The position numbers and the translations under genes are program-made. A stretch of 64,000 bases of DNA from a virus, in the IMG/VR virus record IMGVR_UViG_3300019850_000208, positions 44,575-108,574 of that record; one strand, given 5' to 3'. The number at the start of each line of letters is the position of its first letter. The first letter of the stretch is position 1. The notes beneath the pieces are model-generated. The model was not told where the DNA came from. It saw nothing but the letters and a program-made list of their open reading frames with translations, and made no database searches. This document shows, piece after piece, positions 12,912 through 63,520 of the stretch.

Positions 12912-15242
12912 TCAGTCTGTAGAGTGTCCTCCTTCGCACCATCTCGTATAGTAAGGAGTTAAATTGATTACTGAGATGTTGCCTCCATTTGAGTCCAGAG
13001 AGCCATCTCTTTCAATTCCTATCCAAAGCATGTCGCCAGTGCCGCCACTTCTTCTGGAAATCATGTCGCGTATATTAATTTGGATATTTACTGTAACTTG
13101 GGTCTCTGATAATGGGACATCGACTATTTTTGTGATAGAAACTTCTGATGGAGCCGTTGCCGGGGCGGCAGAAGTGCTAGTATACACACCATCTCCGTCA
13201 GCTGTTTTTGCTATCTTGGCCACCCATCTTACAGTTCCGCCCGCAGACGATGATATAAATCGTAAGCTTAAATTAATAGGACAGCTTGTATCTAAATCAA
13301 ATGGCAGATTGGTTACAAATCCGACTTTGTCTAGTGCACCTTTAGAGAATGAATTTTCAATTCGTCCTACGCTCAAGTCATCAGACACATAAAGTTCTTG
13401 ATTATCTGGACTGTTTTGACCAGCCGCCTCTGTGAGACCCCAATCCCAGGCTAATCTACCTACAGGCCTGGCATTTCCAAAATACTCTATCCAACCATCC
13501 CCATTTACTTTTGCTCTATTTGTATGTATTTTAATATATTGAATTGTGGCGCCGGTAGTAATAGCAGATACAACTCTGAATCTTAACCAGTATGTGCTGT
13601 TTCCAGTGCCAAGAGGGTTGTTTTTTTGCCAATTGTGATTTGATTCATAATTACTGAATCTTATATTCGATAGACCAGTAGTTTCAAAACTATGACCATC
13701 GGAAGGAAAATATGCCGGCTCTGCCTGAGTGACCATTTCATTGATGTTTGCCCAACTGCTTCCATTCCAGTATTCCCATATAGCGTATCCACCTCCATTG
13801 ACTAAAGCGCTGGACACATCAGTATAAATTCCAAAAAATTTGGAGTAATCGGATGTTGTTGAATTGATTAAATCCCATGTAATATAGATTGCGTCATCAA
13901 CATCGGTTCCCATTGTAAATGTTGAACCGCTCGGGCTGGCAGCTATAATAGTCATATCAGTGAATGCGGCATTGTCGTAATTATATATCCTCATGCCTCT
14001 GACTGTCGGGAATCCTTCCCCTAGACATGTATCATATCCCTTTTCAGCTATCCCTACATTTAATGTCTTCGCAAAGTGATGTCCTGGATTGTCCTCTTGA
14101 AGACTAACAAAATCGACAGTTATGTTGCTCCAGTCGACTACACTAATTTTTCTCACATCAAGAGTGCTGCTTGTTAATGCGACAATTCCAGTACTGTCTT
14201 CTTGAAAGATATCATAAGTTGAAATATTACCAGAAAATACATTGTCACCTTTAATTTCTCCATTTGTTCTCGCTCTAATTGTGTAAGTGGCAGTTTTCAC
14301 ACCAATATCGGCGCATGAAATGCTACCTCCATTTTCAGCAAATAATCCGTTAGTTGTATTACTCATTATAATGGATTGACCAGATTGAATTACCACATTG
14401 GCTCCATCTGCGTGAAAAACAGATGTAATATTAGAAGTCATTGATGCTACAACATGCACAGTGGCCATAGCACCAGCTGTAACATATACCAAATTGGAAA
14501 TTACATTTGCACCGGTGGTTGAACCCTCCAGTTCTGAACAGTTTACAGCCGCATATGCGTTGCTGACTATTATACCATTCTGGCAATTCTTAATTTTAAT
14601 ATCAACTATGTTAGCATATCCAGGAGTATTCATCAGAAACCCGGCCGCACCTGTTGCTCCTTCTAATGTAAAGTATCTCAAAGAAGAAGCATTAATTCCA
14701 TTAATAAGATCTTGATTCGTATTAAGAGCTTTTATTGTATTGGCTATTGTTCCTCCAGAGCCTCTTAAACTAACATATGATTTTAAATTTACAGGATTGT
14801 CCTCTGTATATATTCCAGGGGATACTATGATAGTATATGGATTTATAGAACTCGCATCGGTAATGGTTGATAAAGCATGTTTAATTGTGGCGTAAGGCCT
14901 GCTTACTGTGCCATTGCCGGTAATATCGCTGCCCTCTATGGTAACATATACTATTTTTGGGAGGCTCGCTGCTAATGTTATATTGACCCATGTGGCGCCA
15001 TCCCACACATACATATTACTCTCATTAGTATTCCAAAATATTTGGCCTTCTTGTGGCCCGGTTGGAGGCAATAAGTCTTTGGGCAGAATTATTTGACTGT
15101 TTGAGAAATCCATAGTGCCTGAAAAATCAAATTCTGCATTTTCTAAATATTCAAGGGATATACCGTCGGTAGGATTTTCTGGTGGGGGCATATTGATGAT
15201 ACGACTTGCCCCCTGCAAATCTATATTTCCTCGCCATTTCAT
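12912..15242 (-). CDS. Tail spike with pectin-lyase-like beta-helix
   Basis: 776 residues with CAGGAG before ATG. The N-terminus (WRGNIDLQGASRIINM) looks like a virion anchor. Residues about 60-95 carry a 'PQEGQIFWNT...MYVWDGATWV' module related to the Trp repeats. From about 105 the sequence SDITGNGTVSRPYATIKHALSTI is the usual entry to a right-handed parallel beta-helix, and Asn/Gly/Val-rich rungs continue to about 350. The C-terminal half is several beta-sandwich-like segments, including SSWANINEM and STYWLRFRVV. Such spikes often bind or cleave surface polysaccharide. I see no assignable catalytic triad. Transcribed divergently from 15393. Confidence 0.75.
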   Translation of the reverse strand: MKWRGNIDLQGASRIINMPPPENPTDGISLEYLENAEFDFSGTMDFSNSQIILPKDLLPPTGPQEGQIFWNTNESNMYVWDGATWVNITLAASLPKIVYVTIEGSDITGNGTVSRPYATIKHALSTITDASSINPYTIIVSPGIYTEDNPVNLKSYVSLRGSGGTIANTIKALNTNQDLINGINASSLRYFTLEGATGAAGFLMNTPGYANIVDIKIKNCQNGIIVSNAYAAVNCSELEGSTTGANVISNLVYVTAGAMATVHVVASMTSNITSVFHADGANVVIQSGQSIIMSNTTNGLFAENGGSISCADIGVKTATYTIRARTNGEIKGDNVFSGNISTYDIFQEDSTGIVALTSSTLDVRKISVVDWSNITVDFVSLQEDNPGHHFAKTLNVGIAEKGYDTCLGEGFPTVRGMRIYNYDNAAFTDMTIIAASPSGSTFTMGTDVDDAIYITWDLINSTTSDYSKFFGIYTDVSSALVNGGGYAIWEYWNGSSWANINEMVTQAEPAYFPSDGHSFETTGLSNIRFSNYESNHNWQKNNPLGTGNSTYWLRFRVVSAITTGATIQYIKIHTNRAKVNGDGWIEYFGNARPVGRLAWDWGLTEAAGQNSPDNQELYVSDDLSVGRIENSFSKGALDKVGFVTNLPFDLDTSCPINLSLRFISSSAGGTVRWVAKIAKTADGDGVYTSTSAAPATAPSEVSITKIVDVPLSETQVTVNIQINIRDMISRRSGGTGDMLWIGIERDGSLDSNGGNISVINLTPYYTRWCEGGHSTD

Positions 15243-15392
15243 AGGGCTTTCTCCTGATCGTTAGTAGGAAGGCATTATTCGATCATATATTACGGCCGAA
15301 AGCCGCATTGCCTTGAAAATATCTTGTCGTTAAATATTAAAAAGATATTGTTTTTTGCCAAGATAAAGTTAGTATATAGAAGGAGCGAATGA
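15243..15392. promoter_or_regulatory. Divergent intergenic region, possible promoters both ways
   Basis: 150 bp between the minus-strand spike gene and the lone plus-strand gene. On the plus strand TTGAAA, 16 nt, TATTAA (about 15313-15340) is a fair sigma70-type match. On the minus strand TTGGCA, 17 nt, AATATT overlaps it. Strong ribosome sites are present for both genes. A lone plus-strand gene must have its own promoter, so at least one of these is expected to be real. Which one is inference. Confidence 0.4.
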
Positions 15393-15896
15393 GTGTCGAC
15401 TTCAGGAGCTTTTGGATTTCGAGAGAATGGAAAAGAATATTTCAACTATGTGAATTTTGATGCTAATCCAGGCGCATTCATTCCAAACATTAAGTTTTTG
15501 GTTTATGCTTTTGGATGGCCAAAGTTCAAACAAGAGATGCAAAAGGTTAAGTGCTATAGGTCGATTTGTTTTGTCGGTGCCATTATTGACTATATAGGTC
15601 AAGGTTCCGATCGAAAATTAAAACTGCATCTGCCTGAATTTTGGCGTCAATTAAGGCTTATAAAGCAGCGCAAACTCGGAGAATATTCGCCGCAATCAGA
15701 CTATTGTAAATCATTGCCTGGGTCCTTGAAGAAAATGAAGCGTGAAATGGATTTGCAATATATCTATGCAATAAACAAGAATTCAATACGTTATAATGAC
15801 GTTGTTTATGCTAGACAGGACAAGACAGTCCCACTTGCTCCCGATGAAGAAATGAAAAAAACATGGATATTGGGAAGATTACTGGAGTTGGGTTAA
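15393..15896 (+). CDS. Lone plus-strand conserved hypothetical protein
   Basis: 167 residues starting from GTG at 15393, with GAAGGAG 7 nt upstream. The ATG at 15389 is out of frame and opens only a short ORF. The start, STSGAFGFRENGKEYFNYVN followed by FDANPGAF, matches a pattern I recall for uncharacterised phage and bacterial proteins beginning MGTRGAxGFR-nG-d---YNHFDsyP. A basic middle (KQRKLGEYSPQSDYCKSLPG) follows. It is the only complete plus-strand gene here and lies within a minus-strand virion gene run. It behaves like a moron-type insertion with its own transcription. Function unknown. Confidence 0.75.
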   Translation: MSTSGAFGFRENGKEYFNYVNFDANPGAFIPNIKFLVYAFGWPKFKQEMQKVKCYRSICFVGAIIDYIGQGSDRKLKLHLPEFWRQLRLIKQRKLGEYSPQSDYCKSLPGSLKKMKREMDLQYIYAINKNSIRYNDVVYARQDKTVPLAPDEEMKKTWILGRLLELG

Positions 15897-57623: not shown

Positions 57624-59672
57624 TTAACTCTCCTCCTCAGTAGAGGCCAATGAAACTCTAAGCTGCTCGGTTTGTTCTTCGCGTGCTGTTATTAAGGTCA
57701 TGGATGTTGAATATCCATTTCTGCTAATATTATGGGTTACACCTGTTGGGAGAAATAAGTAGTAATTAGTAAGCAAGGACGGCTTTCCATCAGGTCTATT
57801 AACAATGACCCTAACTCTGGATGTTTCAAATGGAATACGAACTCCGTCAAGATATGGATCTCCCAATACTGTTAAATTCAGTCTTAAGACCATATCTTCA
57901 TTGATGGTGGTCATTAATCTTCCCAATATAAATTCATCTCTGGCCGCTCTATCCTGTATGCCTTCTCCATCAGTGCCCTGCGGAATTGTTGGTATTGGTT
58001 TAAATTCGCTATGGTTTTTAATATAGTCATCATAAGTTCTGTCTATGCTCTTCGTTGCTTTTTCCTTGTCTGCTGTTATTTGCGCATTTACACTTGCAAC
58101 TTTATTTATTCCATCCTGTCTGTCTTTAGCTATTTTATTGAACTCTTCTCTTAGGTCGGAATATGTTTTCGGCCTCGTGGTTTTCTGGCCTGTTTCCGGA
58201 TCCGTAACTGTAATAGTATCATTCTCCTGTTCTACTAATATCCAATTGTCATTTTCGTCTTTTATGAGGTTGCCTTTTTTGTCTTTCTTACCATATTTCT
58301 TTAAGAATGTGGTCATCTTCTTATTTAGACCCCCATAGCCGACTTCTTGTTTAGATAATGTTTTTTGGGCTTGTTTAAGTTTTTCTGATAGTTTGGGATC
58401 ACTTTCACGATGTTTTAGTTGTACTTCTTTATCATGCAGAGTTTTTACCTGATCTTTTAGTGTGCTCAGTGCCTTTACTTCTCCATTATCAAATCTAACA
58501 ATTTGTTCGGCTACATTGCCATTATCATCTAAAGTTACTCCAAGAAAGCTCAGGCTGGCAAAACCAAGAAAATATCCCTCAGGTATTTGTGCTTCAAGGC
58601 TTTGTACAACCGAAGTCGGGGTATCGCGCCATTCATATACTCTCTTTATAAAATCTCCAGCAGCATTACTGCCTCTTTTGTTTAATGGCTGTTTAAGTTC
58701 CCATTTTTTTATCAAGCCATACTTTTCAAAATCTTCTTCCTTATCTGGCTTGGCAACCGAAGTTTCTATAGTTGTTATACCCTGCTCTTTGGTACCACTA
58801 TCATGTAAAATTTGCAGTTTCAATGTTTCATTTATAAATGTTATCAGAGATGTATCGCTCTTAAGAAAAGAATTGATATAGCCATGGAATGTATCTACGG
58901 CAAATTGATGATCAAATCCTTCACCAAGTTTATAGTGCACTCCATTCTTTAAATTAAATCTTTTTAGAAATGTCTCCAAGTATTCTTGTATAGTGCCATT
59001 ATCCTTTTTATCTCCATTTTTATCCAGAGGGAATATTTTATCTATCCTTCTGGTTCCCAGTTTTGTAATTTGAAAGAAATATTGGCTGTTCCCTATCAAT
59101 TCCAGGCTGATTGTAAGCCATGTCCCTCTTATTCCATACTTAAATCCTGTAAGTATCATGGTTAGCCAATTGCTTGTGATGGGTTTTGTAACGCCTTCCC
59201 ACCCCCATCTTAACCTGGCAAATCCAGGTGCGGCAAACGGTTCTTCCCATACCCCCTCCTGTCTCTTCAGAATGGTCTCATTATAAAGAGCAAGAGCCCG
59301 AATTGTAAATTTTTCTATCCATGTAAATTGATTATCAGCTAAAGTAATACTGGCTTTTGGATATGGATAAGTGTTGACACTAAAATCACTTACAAAATTG
59401 TATGGAACTTTAAAAATATTTTCACCATAGTCCTCATGGCCTTTGTCTATATCAGTTAATAGCTTTATTTCTATAAATGGCTTGAATGGATATACCGGAC
59501 GAAGAGACACACCATCTTCAACCCAAAAATCCCGGAGCTCCACCTCTGGCGGAGTATCTTGAACAACACGCTGCTTTTTTGTCAGCTCTTCATATGCTCT
59601 CTGCTTTTTAGCAGTAACTTCTGCTGTTGCGGCCGCTATGTTTTTCTGGTATATATCTTTCAATGCTGCCAT
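57624..59672 (-). CDS. Baseplate hub-like protein with coiled-coil insertion
   Basis: 682 residues with GAGG before ATG. The N-terminal ~220 residues are beta-rich (YPFKPFIEIKLLTDIDKGHE, KASITLADNQFTWIEKF, ARLRWGWEG). Residues about 405-545 are a highly charged coiled coil inserted in the protein. The C-terminal ~120 residues carry LRLNLTVLGDPYLDGVRIPF, then YYLFLPTGVTHNISRNGYST and SMTLITA. The pattern 'l-vlGdP-l-G...y-v--vtHnis--GysT---L' is typical of gp27/gpD-type hub proteins. Its position before, not after, the tape measure gene is unusual for a hub. Assignment by motif only. Confidence 0.6.
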   Translation of the reverse strand: MAALKDIYQKNIAAATAEVTAKKQRAYEELTKKQRVVQDTPPEVELRDFWVEDGVSLRPVYPFKPFIEIKLLTDIDKGHEDYGENIFKVPYNFVSDFSVNTYPYPKASITLADNQFTWIEKFTIRALALYNETILKRQEGVWEEPFAAPGFARLRWGWEGVTKPITSNWLTMILTGFKYGIRGTWLTISLELIGNSQYFFQITKLGTRRIDKIFPLDKNGDKKDNGTIQEYLETFLKRFNLKNGVHYKLGEGFDHQFAVDTFHGYINSFLKSDTSLITFINETLKLQILHDSGTKEQGITTIETSVAKPDKEEDFEKYGLIKKWELKQPLNKRGSNAAGDFIKRVYEWRDTPTSVVQSLEAQIPEGYFLGFASLSFLGVTLDDNGNVAEQIVRFDNGEVKALSTLKDQVKTLHDKEVQLKHRESDPKLSEKLKQAQKTLSKQEVGYGGLNKKMTTFLKKYGKKDKKGNLIKDENDNWILVEQENDTITVTDPETGQKTTRPKTYSDLREEFNKIAKDRQDGINKVASVNAQITADKEKATKSIDRTYDDYIKNHSEFKPIPTIPQGTDGEGIQDRAARDEFILGRLMTTINEDMVLRLNLTVLGDPYLDGVRIPFETSRVRVIVNRPDGKPSLLTNYYLFLPTGVTHNISRNGYSTSMTLITAREEQTEQLRVSLASTEEES

Positions 59673-59727: not shown

Positions 59728-60330
59728 TTATTCTTCTGGAGTGGTAGGTGGCGGTTGATAGGAAATTCGCTGCTTGAACGGCGAACTCGTAATTGGGTGA
59801 TAATTGGTCAATCTAGCATTATTTACTATATTTTGTGCCATTGACTTATCAGAGGCATAAGTTTTAGCACCTGGTTTATAGAGGGTTTGATTAATTCTTC
59901 TAATCCATGGCTCGGCAATTGTTTGGATAGCATTTGGCTGAGGCATATTTGACATTCCTGGACTGACCAACCTGCCTCTTAGATTGTTTGTGAAGTACTT
60001 TCTGAATGCGCTTTTGGTAATAAATGGATACATTCTCTTTAACAAAGTATATATAACTAAGCCATTTAATTGCATACCGGAATTTCTCGCATTAATTATA
60101 AAAGATGCAAATGTGTATTGCATAGCACCTATATAGTGGGCGTTAATGCCAGTGGTATATTGCATATCTGAACTCAATATAAATACTGTTGGTCTCGGAT
60201 CATGGATAATATAGCCTGGTCTGCCTGAGCGGTAGGTGCATTGATATATCATACCTGGCGCGAAAGGCATAACCCTTGCATTGAAGCTTCGCCTGAATAC
60301 CAATGATATAATTCTGCGGAATAAATTCAT
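59728..60330 (-). CDS. 200-residue phage protein with HDPxP motif
   Basis: CAGGAG precedes the ATG. Begins with a basic helix (MNLFRRIISLVFRRSFNARV), then FAPGMIYQCTYRSGRPGYII, HDPRPTVFILSSDMQYTTGI and NAHYIGAMQYTF. The middle has LLKRMYPFITKSAFRKYFTN, and a Pro-rich tail (YQPPPTTPEE) closes it. The HDPxP/G-N-HYI block recurs in the 104-residue protein at 40441. Similar small virion proteins occur in large phages. Virion or tail-completion role inferred from context only. Confidence 0.6.
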   Translation of the reverse strand: MNLFRRIISLVFRRSFNARVMPFAPGMIYQCTYRSGRPGYIIHDPRPTVFILSSDMQYTTGINAHYIGAMQYTFASFIINARNSGMQLNGLVIYTLLKRMYPFITKSAFRKYFTNNLRGRLVSPGMSNMPQPNAIQTIAEPWIRRINQTLYKPGAKTYASDKSMAQNIVNNARLTNYHPITSSPFKQRISYQPPPTTPEE

Positions 60331-60400: not shown

Positions 60401-60769
60401 TTACCGGTAATTTTCTGGTTTGTTTTCTAATAATATTTTATTATGACGATCATTAATATATTTCCAGCTTGCTTCGTAGATTTGATATCTATGAGCCCCA
60501 TTTTCCAGCAATTTCCATGCAACACTTTCGACCATTTTATGACATGATCTGCATAGCGTTACCAAGTTTAGGTCTTCATTCGAGTGAGATATTTTTAATG
60601 GTACTATATGATGCACATGCAGGTTTTTTGTGCTACCGCAGATCTTACATCTATTTCCATCTCTTAGCAAAACCTTTTTTCTTATTGTGGGCCAATCTTT
60701 TCCATATTTTGCTTTGGTTTTCCTTGAGTATAAATTATATTTTTGTTTAATCTTAACTTTCTTGGGCAT
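60401..60769 (-). CDS. HNH endonuclease
   Basis: 122 residues. Complete HNH with zinc cysteines: RKKVLLRDGNRCKICGSTKN with C41/C44, LHVHHIVPLKISHSNEDLNL with H53-H54 and N68, then TLCRSCHKMVE with C73/C76 and H77. This is the McrA-type beta-beta-alpha-metal nuclease. The gene overlaps the PAS gene stop by 17 nt and lacks a strong ribosome site, as for inserted freestanding nucleases. It could act in packaging, homing or host DNA attack; no neighbouring terminase was seen. Confidence 0.85.
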   Translation of the reverse strand: MPKKVKIKQKYNLYSRKTKAKYGKDWPTIRKKVLLRDGNRCKICGSTKNLHVHHIVPLKISHSNEDLNLVTLCRSCHKMVESVAWKLLENGAHRYQIYEASWKYINDRHNKILLENKPENYR

Positions 60770-61295
60770 AATCCAGAACTATCTTATAGACTTTATCTAG
60801 TAGCGAAACTAGTTGTTTTAATGATGTATTCATGTCATCTACCAATTGGTAGTTGCTATTTTCTTTCATTTTCATTTGCAATATCTGGGAATAACCATAT
60901 ATGATATCTAACAGAGATTTTATATTAAATATCAAGTCAGGAAATAATTTGTCGATCTGATTTGGATTTTCTACTGCATTTCTGATTTTGTTAAGTGGCT
61001 CATCATTTATCACCAGCAATATAACATACTTCTTTTTCTTACGAAATAGATAGCCTATATGAATAGATAGATGCTCATTATTTAATTGGGTTTTAATATG
61101 CCCTATTCCGTCATGCGATATTAAATTTTCATACTGATTAAAAACTTCCTGTGATGGAAATAAAAAATTAACATGCGTGTTACTCACGTCCTCATTTGAT
61201 ATCTCATAGTATTCGCGCGCCTTTTTGTTCATTTGTATTATTTTATTATTTTTGATGATAATAATACCTAATGGTAATCGTCCGAAACGAAACAT
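60753..61295 (-). CDS. PAS domain protein with degenerate DHp (histidine-kinase-like) domain
   Basis: About 180 residues. GAGGA lies 6 nt before the ATG at 61295; the ATG at 61301 is too close to it. Numbering from 61301: residues 8-100 have a PAS pattern (LPLGIIIIKNNKIIQMNKKA, REYYEISNEDVSNTHV). Residues 119-175 align with the DHp helices of histidine kinases (FNIKSLLDIIYGYSQILQMK). The HEIRTPLN-type phosphoacceptor His is Phe125 and the conserved Pro is Leu130. No ATPase domain follows. It may be a sensor or decoy that engages host two-component systems; unproven. Confidence 0.7.
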   Translation of the reverse strand: MFRFGRLPLGIIIIKNNKIIQMNKKAREYYEISNEDVSNTHVNFLFPSQEVFNQYENLISHDGIGHIKTQLNNEHLSIHIGYLFRKKKKYVILLVINDEPLNKIRNAVENPNQIDKLFPDLIFNIKSLLDIIYGYSQILQMKMKENSNYQLVDDMNTSLKQLVSLLDKVYKIVLDYAQES

Positions 61296-61321
61296 AAACA
61301 TTCCTCAAATTATAGTATAAT

Positions 61322-61342
61322 AGCTCGCCGCAGGGACGAGCT
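61322..61342 (-). promoter_or_regulatory. Small hairpin in the PAS-gene leader
   Basis: A 7-bp perfect stem (TAGCTCG/CGAGCTA, 61321-61327 with 61337-61343) and 9-nt loop lie about 15 nt upstream of the GAGGA of the PAS gene. The region 61344-61393 holds AT-rich sequence with possible -10 matches but no convincing -35. The hairpin could protect the transcript 5' end or affect initiation. Confidence 0.35.
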
Positions 61343-61393
61343 AGCTAGGCTATTATCTTGGCTATAAGCATGACTATTAACATTATATTTACC

Positions 61394-61424
61394 AAAAAAA
61401 ATGCCCCATGCTATAACATGGGGC
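61394..61424 (-). terminator. Intrinsic terminator after the methyltransferase pair
   Basis: On the minus strand an 8-bp perfect stem (GCCCCATG / CATGGGGC, 61417-61424 with 61403-61410) and 6-nt loop are followed by AT and seven T. It ends the unit containing the methyltransferase (61904-63502) and the 147-residue protein, and separates it from the PAS gene onward. Confidence 0.85.
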
Positions 61425-61473
61425 AAAGACAGGAGGAGTTGGAGAAATTGACATTTCCCCAGGAAAAATATTT

Positions 61474-61917
61474 TTAGGCCTGCTTCAGATCTGAAACAGA
61501 TATCTGCTTCAAGTTTTGAAGCTGACTACTCATTTTAATATTTGATAATTTGATTTCTTGCCTGGCGGTATTCTTGAGCGCCGATATCGCCTCTTTTAAA
61601 ATGTTCATTTTATCGCTTTTTATATTTCCTTGTACATATGCATTATCTCGAAAAGTAATAGACGCTATTTCATCATGTTCATCATCAATTATTTGATAAG
61701 TGCGCTCAATCTGATTGGCTCTATTTCTCTTTATACTTCTTGAAATTTGGTATTTCCCAACAGCTAGTGCAGTCTGCTCAACATCACTCTCTAACTGTAA
61801 AATATCATGCAGTACATCTATAATGTATGTTATGCTCTGCCATGCTGCAGAAAGATCATGTCTTAAAGCTCGGTCATTTGATAGTTTAATACTTAAATCG
61901 TCATCAATCAGTACCAT
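61474..61917 (-). CDS. Helical protein overlapping the methyltransferase gene
   Basis: 147 residues from ATG 61917. AGGAAGG at 61924-61930 is 6 nt upstream, so this start is preferred to the ATG at 61941, which lacks such a site. The start overlaps the methyltransferase 3' end by 14 nt. Largely helical: LRHDLSAAWQSITYIIDVLH, a basic turn (QISRSIKRNRANQIERTYQI), and a coiled-coil end (MNILKEAISALKNTARQEIK). No motif named. Coupling suggests a methyltransferase partner. Confidence 0.65.
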   Translation of the reverse strand: MVLIDDDLSIKLSNDRALRHDLSAAWQSITYIIDVLHDILQLESDVEQTALAVGKYQISRSIKRNRANQIERTYQIIDDEHDEIASITFRDNAYVQGNIKSDKMNILKEAISALKNTARQEIKLSNIKMSSQLQNLKQISVSDLKQA

Positions 61918-63502
61918 TTTTTTCCTTCCTAATAAAGTCATTCGCTAGTCTTACATATTCCTCAGATATATCAAACCCTATCCAGCGATATCCCTTTTTG
62001 TACTTTTTATTAAGCCTGACGGCAGCCTGAGGAGTACTGGCACTCCCGCAGAATGGATCTACTATCAATCCCCCTTTAGGCAGATAAAGCTCAATAAATC
62101 TTTTGGCCAAATCCACACTGAATGGAGCGGGATGATGCCTCACTTTTGTGTTCGTTGGGGCTATGTCCCAATTATCAGTAAAGGTACGCCAAAAAACCGC
62201 AAAGCTTTCTGCCAGGGCGTCTTTGATGTGGCCTTCATTGTGCTTCAAGGCCGTCTTTAATTTATTGACAACCTGCCGGGACATTTTCGCCATAACTTCG
62301 TCCACTTTTGCCTTATATATTTCTTTAAGAGCTTTATTTATTTTTGTTGGGGTTAGAGCGCTCCCATTCTTGAGCTTTGGTCTAACCTCATTTAGTGCCC
62401 GAGCCGCCATCTCTTCAATTGCACCATCCATAACGGCCATGGTTTTACCAATCCATTGTACAGCCAGATCTGGAATACTATCTTTAATTTTTAATTTATC
62501 GATATCCGAGCTTATCATAGATTTAGTCTGGCTTTCTTTTAACTGAAGCTCGGTTTTATCATACCAAACATTATATAGTTGGTCTTTGGCCTGTTTAAGA
62601 TCTATAGTTGTCTTGTTGGTAATGTTAGGGCCCTTTGTTAATATCCAAATATATTCACTAATTGGATTAGGATGATATACCTGGGCCGCCTCTTGCTCTA
62701 GTATCGCCTTATTTTCCTTGATGGTCCCGCCTTGTGCGAATAAGCTCAAAACTCTAATTTGGTTGTTAATATTATATCTCTCTAAATCAAGGGCTTTGTA
62801 TTGAGCATCATTTGTATTTTTTATTTCACGGAGCTCCGCCAGTATTTCCTTCTTCTTTTCTCTAAACAACTCTAATTGTTGCGATGCTTCCTGTGGATCT
62901 GAGTTAGATTTCATATCTAAAAGCTTTAAACGATCTTGGTATTTTTGATACGAAATAATATAAGAACCGGTTCTTTGCTTGCCTGCGCCCAAAGGTTTGA
63001 CCCACATAATCTGTTCTTGAAATGTGAAGCCACTATCAATAGCTATATTAAGCAAATCTATTCCAGTGGGTCTTTTTTCACCCTCCGACATCACATTGGA
63101 AATATTAAGACCGAAAACACCGCCTTCTTTAAGAGCAGCATAGGCCGAATTTATAAAACGTTTCATCAGCACAAGATAATCATGATAGGGCATGCTGTCA
63201 TTATATTCGTAATTATCGCTGACGTTGTCTCCATAATCTTTGGAACACAAATATGGCGGCGATGTAAAAATAGCATCTATTTGATTACGAAGTTTTAATA
63301 ATCCGGTTATACAATTTTCGTTATATATATTATCAGGTTCGAGACCTTCTTCTATCTCGAAACTTTGCTTTTTGGCATTGTCAAAGGACTTCTTGCTCAA
63401 TGACGGCTGGTTAAAACCTGCTACTGGCTTCGTACTTTTTGAGTTCATATCATAAAGAAAAACATTTTTATCAGAAACGATCTCAAGATATTTTGTTGTC
63501 AT
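61904..63502 (-). CDS. Beta-class DNA methyltransferase (N4-cytosine-like)
   Basis: 532 residues from ATG 63502, with AGGGG 5 nt upstream; the GTG at 63508 is an alternative. Motif IV, TSPPY (about residue 80), comes before motif I, DPFCGSAST (about 482). This order is that of the beta class, and SPP rather than DPP favours N4-cytosine. YHPNPISEYIWIL (about 276) fits motif VIII. A charged coiled coil (about 183-270) and a second helical insertion (about 320-440) separate the motifs, making the protein longer than usual. Likely protects phage DNA or marks it. The target site is unknown. Confidence 0.85.
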   Translation of the reverse strand: MTTKYLEIVSDKNVFLYDMNSKSTKPVAGFNQPSLSKKSFDNAKKQSFEIEEGLEPDNIYNENCITGLLKLRNQIDAIFTSPPYLCSKDYGDNVSDNYEYNDSMPYHDYLVLMKRFINSAYAALKEGGVFGLNISNVMSEGEKRPTGIDLLNIAIDSGFTFQEQIMWVKPLGAGKQRTGSYIISYQKYQDRLKLLDMKSNSDPQEASQQLELFREKKKEILAELREIKNTNDAQYKALDLERYNINNQIRVLSLFAQGGTIKENKAILEQEAAQVYHPNPISEYIWILTKGPNITNKTTIDLKQAKDQLYNVWYDKTELQLKESQTKSMISSDIDKLKIKDSIPDLAVQWIGKTMAVMDGAIEEMAARALNEVRPKLKNGSALTPTKINKALKEIYKAKVDEVMAKMSRQVVNKLKTALKHNEGHIKDALAESFAVFWRTFTDNWDIAPTNTKVRHHPAPFSVDLAKRFIELYLPKGGLIVDPFCGSASTPQAAVRLNKKYKKGYRWIGFDISEEYVRLANDFIRKEKNGTD

Positions 63503-63520
63503 TTTCACCCCTATCGATAA

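Follow-up and report, generated by a model that had tools for sequence, protein, structure and literature searches.

The locus examined here raises the question of whether a small phage protein can combine a PAS domain with a histidine kinase DHp domain that has lost its phosphoacceptor, and of what such a protein would do. The window, i.e. the whole 64,000-nucleotide stretch of DNA that was analysed, covers bases 44575-108574 of a 108,574-base IMG/VR record. Its proteins include a baseplate wedge and hub, other tail proteins, an end-protector-like protein and phage-type HNH proteins, and by these markers in its sequence the source is a tailed phage with a baseplate of the contractile-tail type. 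tRNA and Rfam matches were searched for and none was found. The phage record is probably incomplete.

An initial annotation, made from the letters of the window, had placed the gene at 60753-61301, in a unit with HNH and structural genes. The open reading frame was present there on the minus strand, with an ATG start and 182 aa, and the proposed unit was borne out and refined, the PAS gene being the first after a strong terminator and overlapping the HNH gene. A homologue with 47% identity occupied the equivalent place in two IMG/VR contigs, G001 (82 kb) and G002 (131 kb), which are near-identical to each other and are therefore counted as one independent homologue, not two (hereafter the relative). 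The features of the neighbourhood are as follows:

57624..59672, minus strand: conserved protein of 682 aa in the structural region, 56% identical to its counterpart at the equivalent position in G001/G002
59728..60330, minus strand: DNA end protector-like protein, 200 aa (phrog_429, E 2.1e-5; 64-65% identity to the relative)
60401..60769, minus strand: HNH endonuclease, 122 aa (Pfam HNH, E 5.6e-10; 17-base overlap with the PAS gene)
60753..61301, minus strand: PAS plus pseudo-DHp protein, 182 aa, with the syntenic homologue in G001/G002
61402..61425, minus strand: intrinsic terminator (10-pair stem followed by T8) that separates the 155-aa gene from the PAS gene
61426..61439, minus strand: conserved 14-mer ACTCCTCCTGTCTT directly before the terminator, an identical block at the equivalent place in both phage lineages
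61474..61941, minus strand: upstream neighbour of 155 aa that belongs to no clear family, 29% identical to the syntenic ORF
61904..63508, minus strand: DNA methyltransferase of the N6/N4 type (Pfam E 5.3e-33; about 60% identity to the relative)

Since a strong intrinsic terminator separates it from the preceding 155-aa gene, the PAS gene is apparently the first of a new unit, which continues with the HNH, end-protector-like and 682-aa protein genes and a 1077-aa tape-measure-like ORF. This gene order was identical in the relative, where the overlap of the PAS and HNH genes was also present and an equivalent terminator lay at the matching place (L012:9912-9941). In the relative, the 14-mer was found at L012:9898-9911 (+), the aligned stretch around it being 73% identical between the lineages and the compared proteins of the two phages only 29-68% identical. 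It is preceded by a GGGG...CTCC element and could be a conserved regulatory or processing site. A 7-bp perfect inverted repeat (TAGCTCG/CGAGCTA; window 61321-61343, minus strand) lies some 20 bases before the start codon of the PAS gene.

The baseplate wedge protein (68% identity) gave access to the homologues, which were then found by searching the records that it identified. Direct scans of IMG/VR, GTDB genomes, phages and plasmids with the 182-aa protein or the alignment returned only the two near-identical contigs or nothing, and a further route through the wedge and end-protector proteins led only to a 9.7-kb contig, in which the wedge was distant and a PAS gene was lacking; relatives beyond these two phage lineages were thus not found in IMG/VR, GTDB genomes, phages or plasmids. 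Neighbouring proteins were 51-65% identical to those of the relative, with the exception of the 155-aa protein (29%). Between the two PAS genes, 62% of third codon positions and 23% of second positions differed (NG86 dN of 0.46 and dS of 2.8, the latter saturated), a pattern of nucleotide change that marks a protein under constraint.

Two-component parts were also found elsewhere in G002. A hybrid histidine kinase of 668 aa (L021:9797-11803, minus strand; PAS-PAS-HisKA(AHDFNN)-HATPase-REC) is encoded among replication genes, between those for a DNA polymerase and a deaminase, and its best plasmid homologue among the matches listed reached at most about 33% identity. This complete kinase shows that the phage group can carry two-component parts; no close relationship linked it to the 182-aa protein, and the idea that the latter is its copy or paralogue was rejected. 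The DnaE-type DNA polymerase of G002 is apparently split into two ORFs (L021:7673-9781 and 14663-15883, both minus strand), separated by about 4.9 kb in which the hybrid kinase and other genes lie. A receiver protein of 110 aa in the same contig (L021:6482-6814, minus strand) is of the cREC type (PF20274), which has been linked to NAD/ADP-ribose systems in jumbo phages and reportedly never accompanies two-component kinases (PMC7824862). On this ground the protein was discarded as a candidate response-regulator partner. In the left part of the window's phage record, sulfotransferase-, glycosyltransferase-, radical SAM-, APS-kinase- and NeuB-like ORFs were recognised by eye (L002:344-883, L002:16236-19774, L003:383-8072), and this cluster may be a surface-sugar modification island. 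By eye, a 670-aa ORF at L003:14515-16527 (plus strand) showed many TNLKKYGVxxxxQ-type repeats followed by an endonuclease-like C-terminus.

Within the 182-aa protein, the following parts were delimited:

61005..61277, minus strand: PAS domain, residues 9-99 (Pfam PAS_9, AlphaFold2 topology, Foldseek matches to PAS, LOV and FixL)
60759..60965, minus strand: DHp-like helical hairpin, residues 113-181 (CreC register, kinase models, HisKA, E. coli DHp profile, AlphaFold2 model, Foldseek)
60927..60929, minus strand: Phe125, at the position of the phospho-accepting His and replaced by Leu in the relative (CreC, HisKA and profile-profile alignments)
60912..60926, minus strand: Asn126, Ile127, Lys128, Ser129 and Leu130, the rest of the degenerate H-box (alignment; position roles from PMC3510030)

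The N-terminal half is a PAS domain, judging from family models and a predicted fold. The initial annotation had called for Pfam searches with PAS and HisKA: the PAS match stood in the relative (30.9 bits, cut-off 27; best E 1.2e-6), whereas PAS_9 remained sub-threshold for the window protein (E 0.0033), and HisKA stayed below its cut-off in the window protein, with no HisKA (PF00512) match reported for the relative. An AlphaFold2 model computed from an alignment of two sequences only predicted the canonical PAS topology (E12-17 E20-24 H26-32 H36-41 H44-47 H51-62 E67-73 E76-87 E90-99), with pLDDT values of about 62-85 over residues 11-110 and mostly 72-85 over residues 11-80, and Foldseek searches with it retrieved LOV, FixL, DOS and other PAS or heme-PAS structures. 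From a single sequence the AlphaFold2 model was poor (pLDDT 45) and the fold search made from it meaningless. A Pfam match to IFNGR1_D2 (E 0.001), located inside the PAS region and absent from the homologue, was judged to be due to chance.

The C-terminal half had been read as two helices that follow the PAS-like fold in register with a DHp domain, with the motif GYSQIL in place. The motif was confirmed, and family models, residue register, conservation in the second phage and the fold search agreed on the arrangement, HisKA remaining sub-threshold (E 0.15 and 12.6 bits with the whole protein; E 0.022 and 15.2 bits with the C-terminal half alone against all of Pfam; cut-off 26.9). Two NCBIfam models matched PAS and DHp collinearly, namely MASE3_PAS_HK (E 1.3e-5, residues 9-163) and AtoS (E 9.8e-4, residues 12-170), and the CreC model matched the DHp part only, ungapped, with residues 103-172 on 243-312 (E 0.004). 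As the phospho-His of CreC is residue 265, Phe125 sits on the His position. The Pfam HisKA match begins past the H-box, at residue 131, which is aligned to model position 17. Counting back from there, Phe125 falls on position 11; if neither match has a gap in this part, His300 of the G002 kinase falls on that position too. A profile-profile alignment of the family with nine E. coli kinases likewise paired Phe125 with the His (P 0.0012), so that all three alignments agree with the residue singled out by the initial annotation.

With a DHp profile of the same nine kinases, the C-terminal half scored 14.3 bits, reached by 0 of 4851 scored shuffles; for the relative the score was 9.0 bits, a value that 2 of 4876 shuffles attained. 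When 2326 stop-to-stop frames taken from several phages were ranked, the window protein came first (E 0.019), with the true G002 kinase behind it and the relative in fifth place. The AlphaFold2 model predicted helices at residues 123-146 and 155-181, with modest confidence (pLDDT 43-59 over residues 111-180). Its best PDB matches in Foldseek extended across both halves over 180-196 columns (YF1, E 1.3e-5 with 194 columns; SB2F1, WalK and VicK); the rmsd to these structures was large, and the hinge angles are therefore not reproduced in the model. Taken together, kinase models, DHp profile, AlphaFold2 model and Foldseek support a two-helix hairpin in DHp register after the PAS domain. The evidence is weaker than for the PAS half but convergent, and DHp ancestry of the hairpin, if not proven, is likely.

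The residues required for catalysis have been replaced. The phospho-accepting His is Phe125 in the window protein and Leu in the relative; the Glu that follows it in kinases is Asn126 in both; and the Thr/Asn of kinases at +4 is Ser129 in the window protein and Ala in the relative. The conserved Pro (H+5) corresponds to Leu130, as had been proposed. Neither protein thus has the acidic residue after the His or the Thr/Asn at +4, which in HisKA domains are needed for kinase and phosphatase activity, respectively, according to the available text of PMC3510030, in which Ser is not among the substitutions tested at the phosphatase position +4. The HATPase_c domain (PF02518) was absent from the window's phage record (G000) and from G001, in line with the earlier remark that no ATPase domain follows, and occurred in G002 only in the separate hybrid kinase. 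Because the His, Glu and Pro are replaced and HATPase_c is absent from the record, the sequence rules out kinase activity. As for phosphatase activity, it would be unlikely for the window protein, with its Ser129, and very unlikely for the relative.

The distribution of changes between the two phages bears on what has been kept. The DHp half was 58% identical (48/83) and the PAS half 38% (37/97), and within residues 119-141 (LFPDLIFNIKSLLDIIYGYSQIL) 19 of the 23 positions were invariant, the variable ones being 125, 129, 133 and 140, i.e. the former His and Thr/Asn sites and two others. That the DHp half is better conserved than the PAS half, yet varies at the His and Thr/Asn sites, suggests a binding module that works without phosphotransfer. 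Such a pattern would be expected for a domain kept for packing or binding, not for chemistry, and with two sequences only it is an indication, not a test. In terms of sequence, the protein is a pseudo-histidine kinase reduced to PAS plus DHp, and its reading as a non-phosphorylatable sensor-plus-dimerisation module is supported by the alignments and the model.

As a function, we tentatively favour a small soluble protein, derived from a PAS-type histidine kinase, that dimerises and binds a two-component partner through its pseudo-DHp domain without transferring phosphate. Its hairpin would pair into a four-helix bundle; a ligand or redox state may set the PAS half, which would alter the shape of the bundle; and the bundle would dock on, or heterodimerise with, a host kinase, a response regulator or a phage-borne kinase, acting by binding and not by phosphotransfer. 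The collinear PAS-DHp matches to kinase models, the three alignment methods that put Phe125 on the His, the fold matches to PAS/LOV histidine kinases and the conservation of the DHp half argue for this proposal; the HisKA score below the curated cut-off, the weak DHp score of the relative, the modest pLDDT of the helices and the position of the gene among morphogenesis genes argue against it. A decoy or regulator of host two-component signalling, as initially suggested, would be one form of such docking and is plausible in that it fits the anatomy of the protein, but a fast arms race with a host target would not be expected to leave the DHp half so strongly conserved. It is somewhat unlikely that the two proteins represent a phage-specific family of stand-alone PAS/pseudo-DHp proteins that, devoid of kinase and phosphatase residues, rewires signalling late in infection by docking on two-component proteins or heterodimerising with them, in response to a PAS-sensed cue.

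A literature search aimed at such a PAS/pseudo-DHp phage protein found no description of one. The PAS/LOV histidine kinases (YF1, SB2F1, WalK and VicK, with AtoS and CreC by sequence) share the passage from PAS to DHp hairpin, the register and the predicted fold; in contrast to them, the phage-borne protein has only 182 aa and lacks the phospho-His, the adjacent Glu, the Pro and the ATPase domain. DivL-type pseudo-histidine kinases likewise combine PAS and DHp with a residue other than His at the His site. DivL, the closest functioning precedent for the proposed mechanism, has Tyr there (Ala in one species), needs no phosphorylated DHp to function and can dispense with its ATPase domain, and it is its DHp-CA region that binds a response regulator (PMC4211667); unlike the phage protein, it has several PAS domains and retains both an ATPase domain and the other H-box residues, the two having been compared in sequence via a general DHp profile only. 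Sda and KipI are small DHp-binding proteins able to shut kinases off (PMC8534201). They resemble the phage protein, which could act on DHp domains, in being small and non-catalytic, a likeness that is functional and hypothetical only, and differ from it in that they are not themselves DHp-derived but attach to DHp from outside.

Small phage proteins with a PAS-like fold also occur among BFVD entries (A0A6J5KZZ3, 169 aa; A0A6J5RGP7) and in Cellulophaga phages (phi18:3 gp090, phi19:1 gp108), the BFVD entries for the latter having been matched to their ORFs, presumptively, by phage name and length. The Cellulophaga proteins examined carry a hydrophobic segment at the N-terminus and the PAS-like part at the C-terminus, lie near lysozyme-type genes and lack a C-terminal DHp hairpin. 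Three loci of this kind (L040:39102-39620, L036:39447-39986, L042:5641-6363) encode small, unannotated proteins that are PAS-like by fold search, near glycosyl hydrolase/lysozyme genes, and may possibly be membrane-anchored sensors in lysis regions.

Other explanations share much of this evidence. Because the gene heads a morphogenesis unit and its DHp half evolves slowly, a role inside the phage is nearly as likely as the binding of a two-component partner: the pseudo-DHp would be a dimerisation coil only, in a late regulator or assembly factor that controls or scaffolds the HNH, end-protector/head-completion and tail genes. The gene is the first past a conserved terminator, overlaps the HNH gene in both lineages and is followed by end-protector-like and structural genes, and the whole block is syntenic in the two lineages. 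That the related phage G002 has a complete hybrid kinase of its own also fits a role inside the phage. No direct sign of interaction with HNH, end-protector or tail proteins was seen, however, and the near-invariance around the former H-box exceeds the needs of a plain coil.

An ordinary helical dimerisation element that resembles DHp but has no kinase ancestry, placed after a PAS domain as a coiled coil, would account for the sub-threshold HisKA match, for the shuffles that equalled the relative's DHp score and for an unrelated phage frame that nearly equals the window protein (10.8 against 12.0 bits); it is nevertheless clearly unlikely in view of the ungapped 70-residue CreC register, the collinear PAS-DHp matches, the first rank among the scored frames and the fold matches to full kinases across both halves. 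Far less probable still is a decaying, functionless remnant of a captured histidine kinase. The loss of the catalytic parts and the complete hybrid kinase in the related phage G002 would agree with it, but that kinase is not a close relative, and an open frame, a kept position, 47% identity and amino-acid-conserving changes in two diverged lineages speak against decay. A remnant of a once fused kinase was unsupported, the HNH gene being immediately next in both lineages.

If the preferred reading of a PAS/pseudo-DHp protein that binds a two-component partner is true, phages would have converted the part of a histidine kinase that senses and dimerises into a regulator that acts by binding alone. 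It would then offer a compact dominant-negative or decoy of natural origin against two-component systems, and signal transmission could be followed in a minimal pair of PAS and DHp, free of catalysis. Were the protein a structural regulator and nothing more, its link to a phage morphogenesis unit would still make it unusual among PAS proteins.
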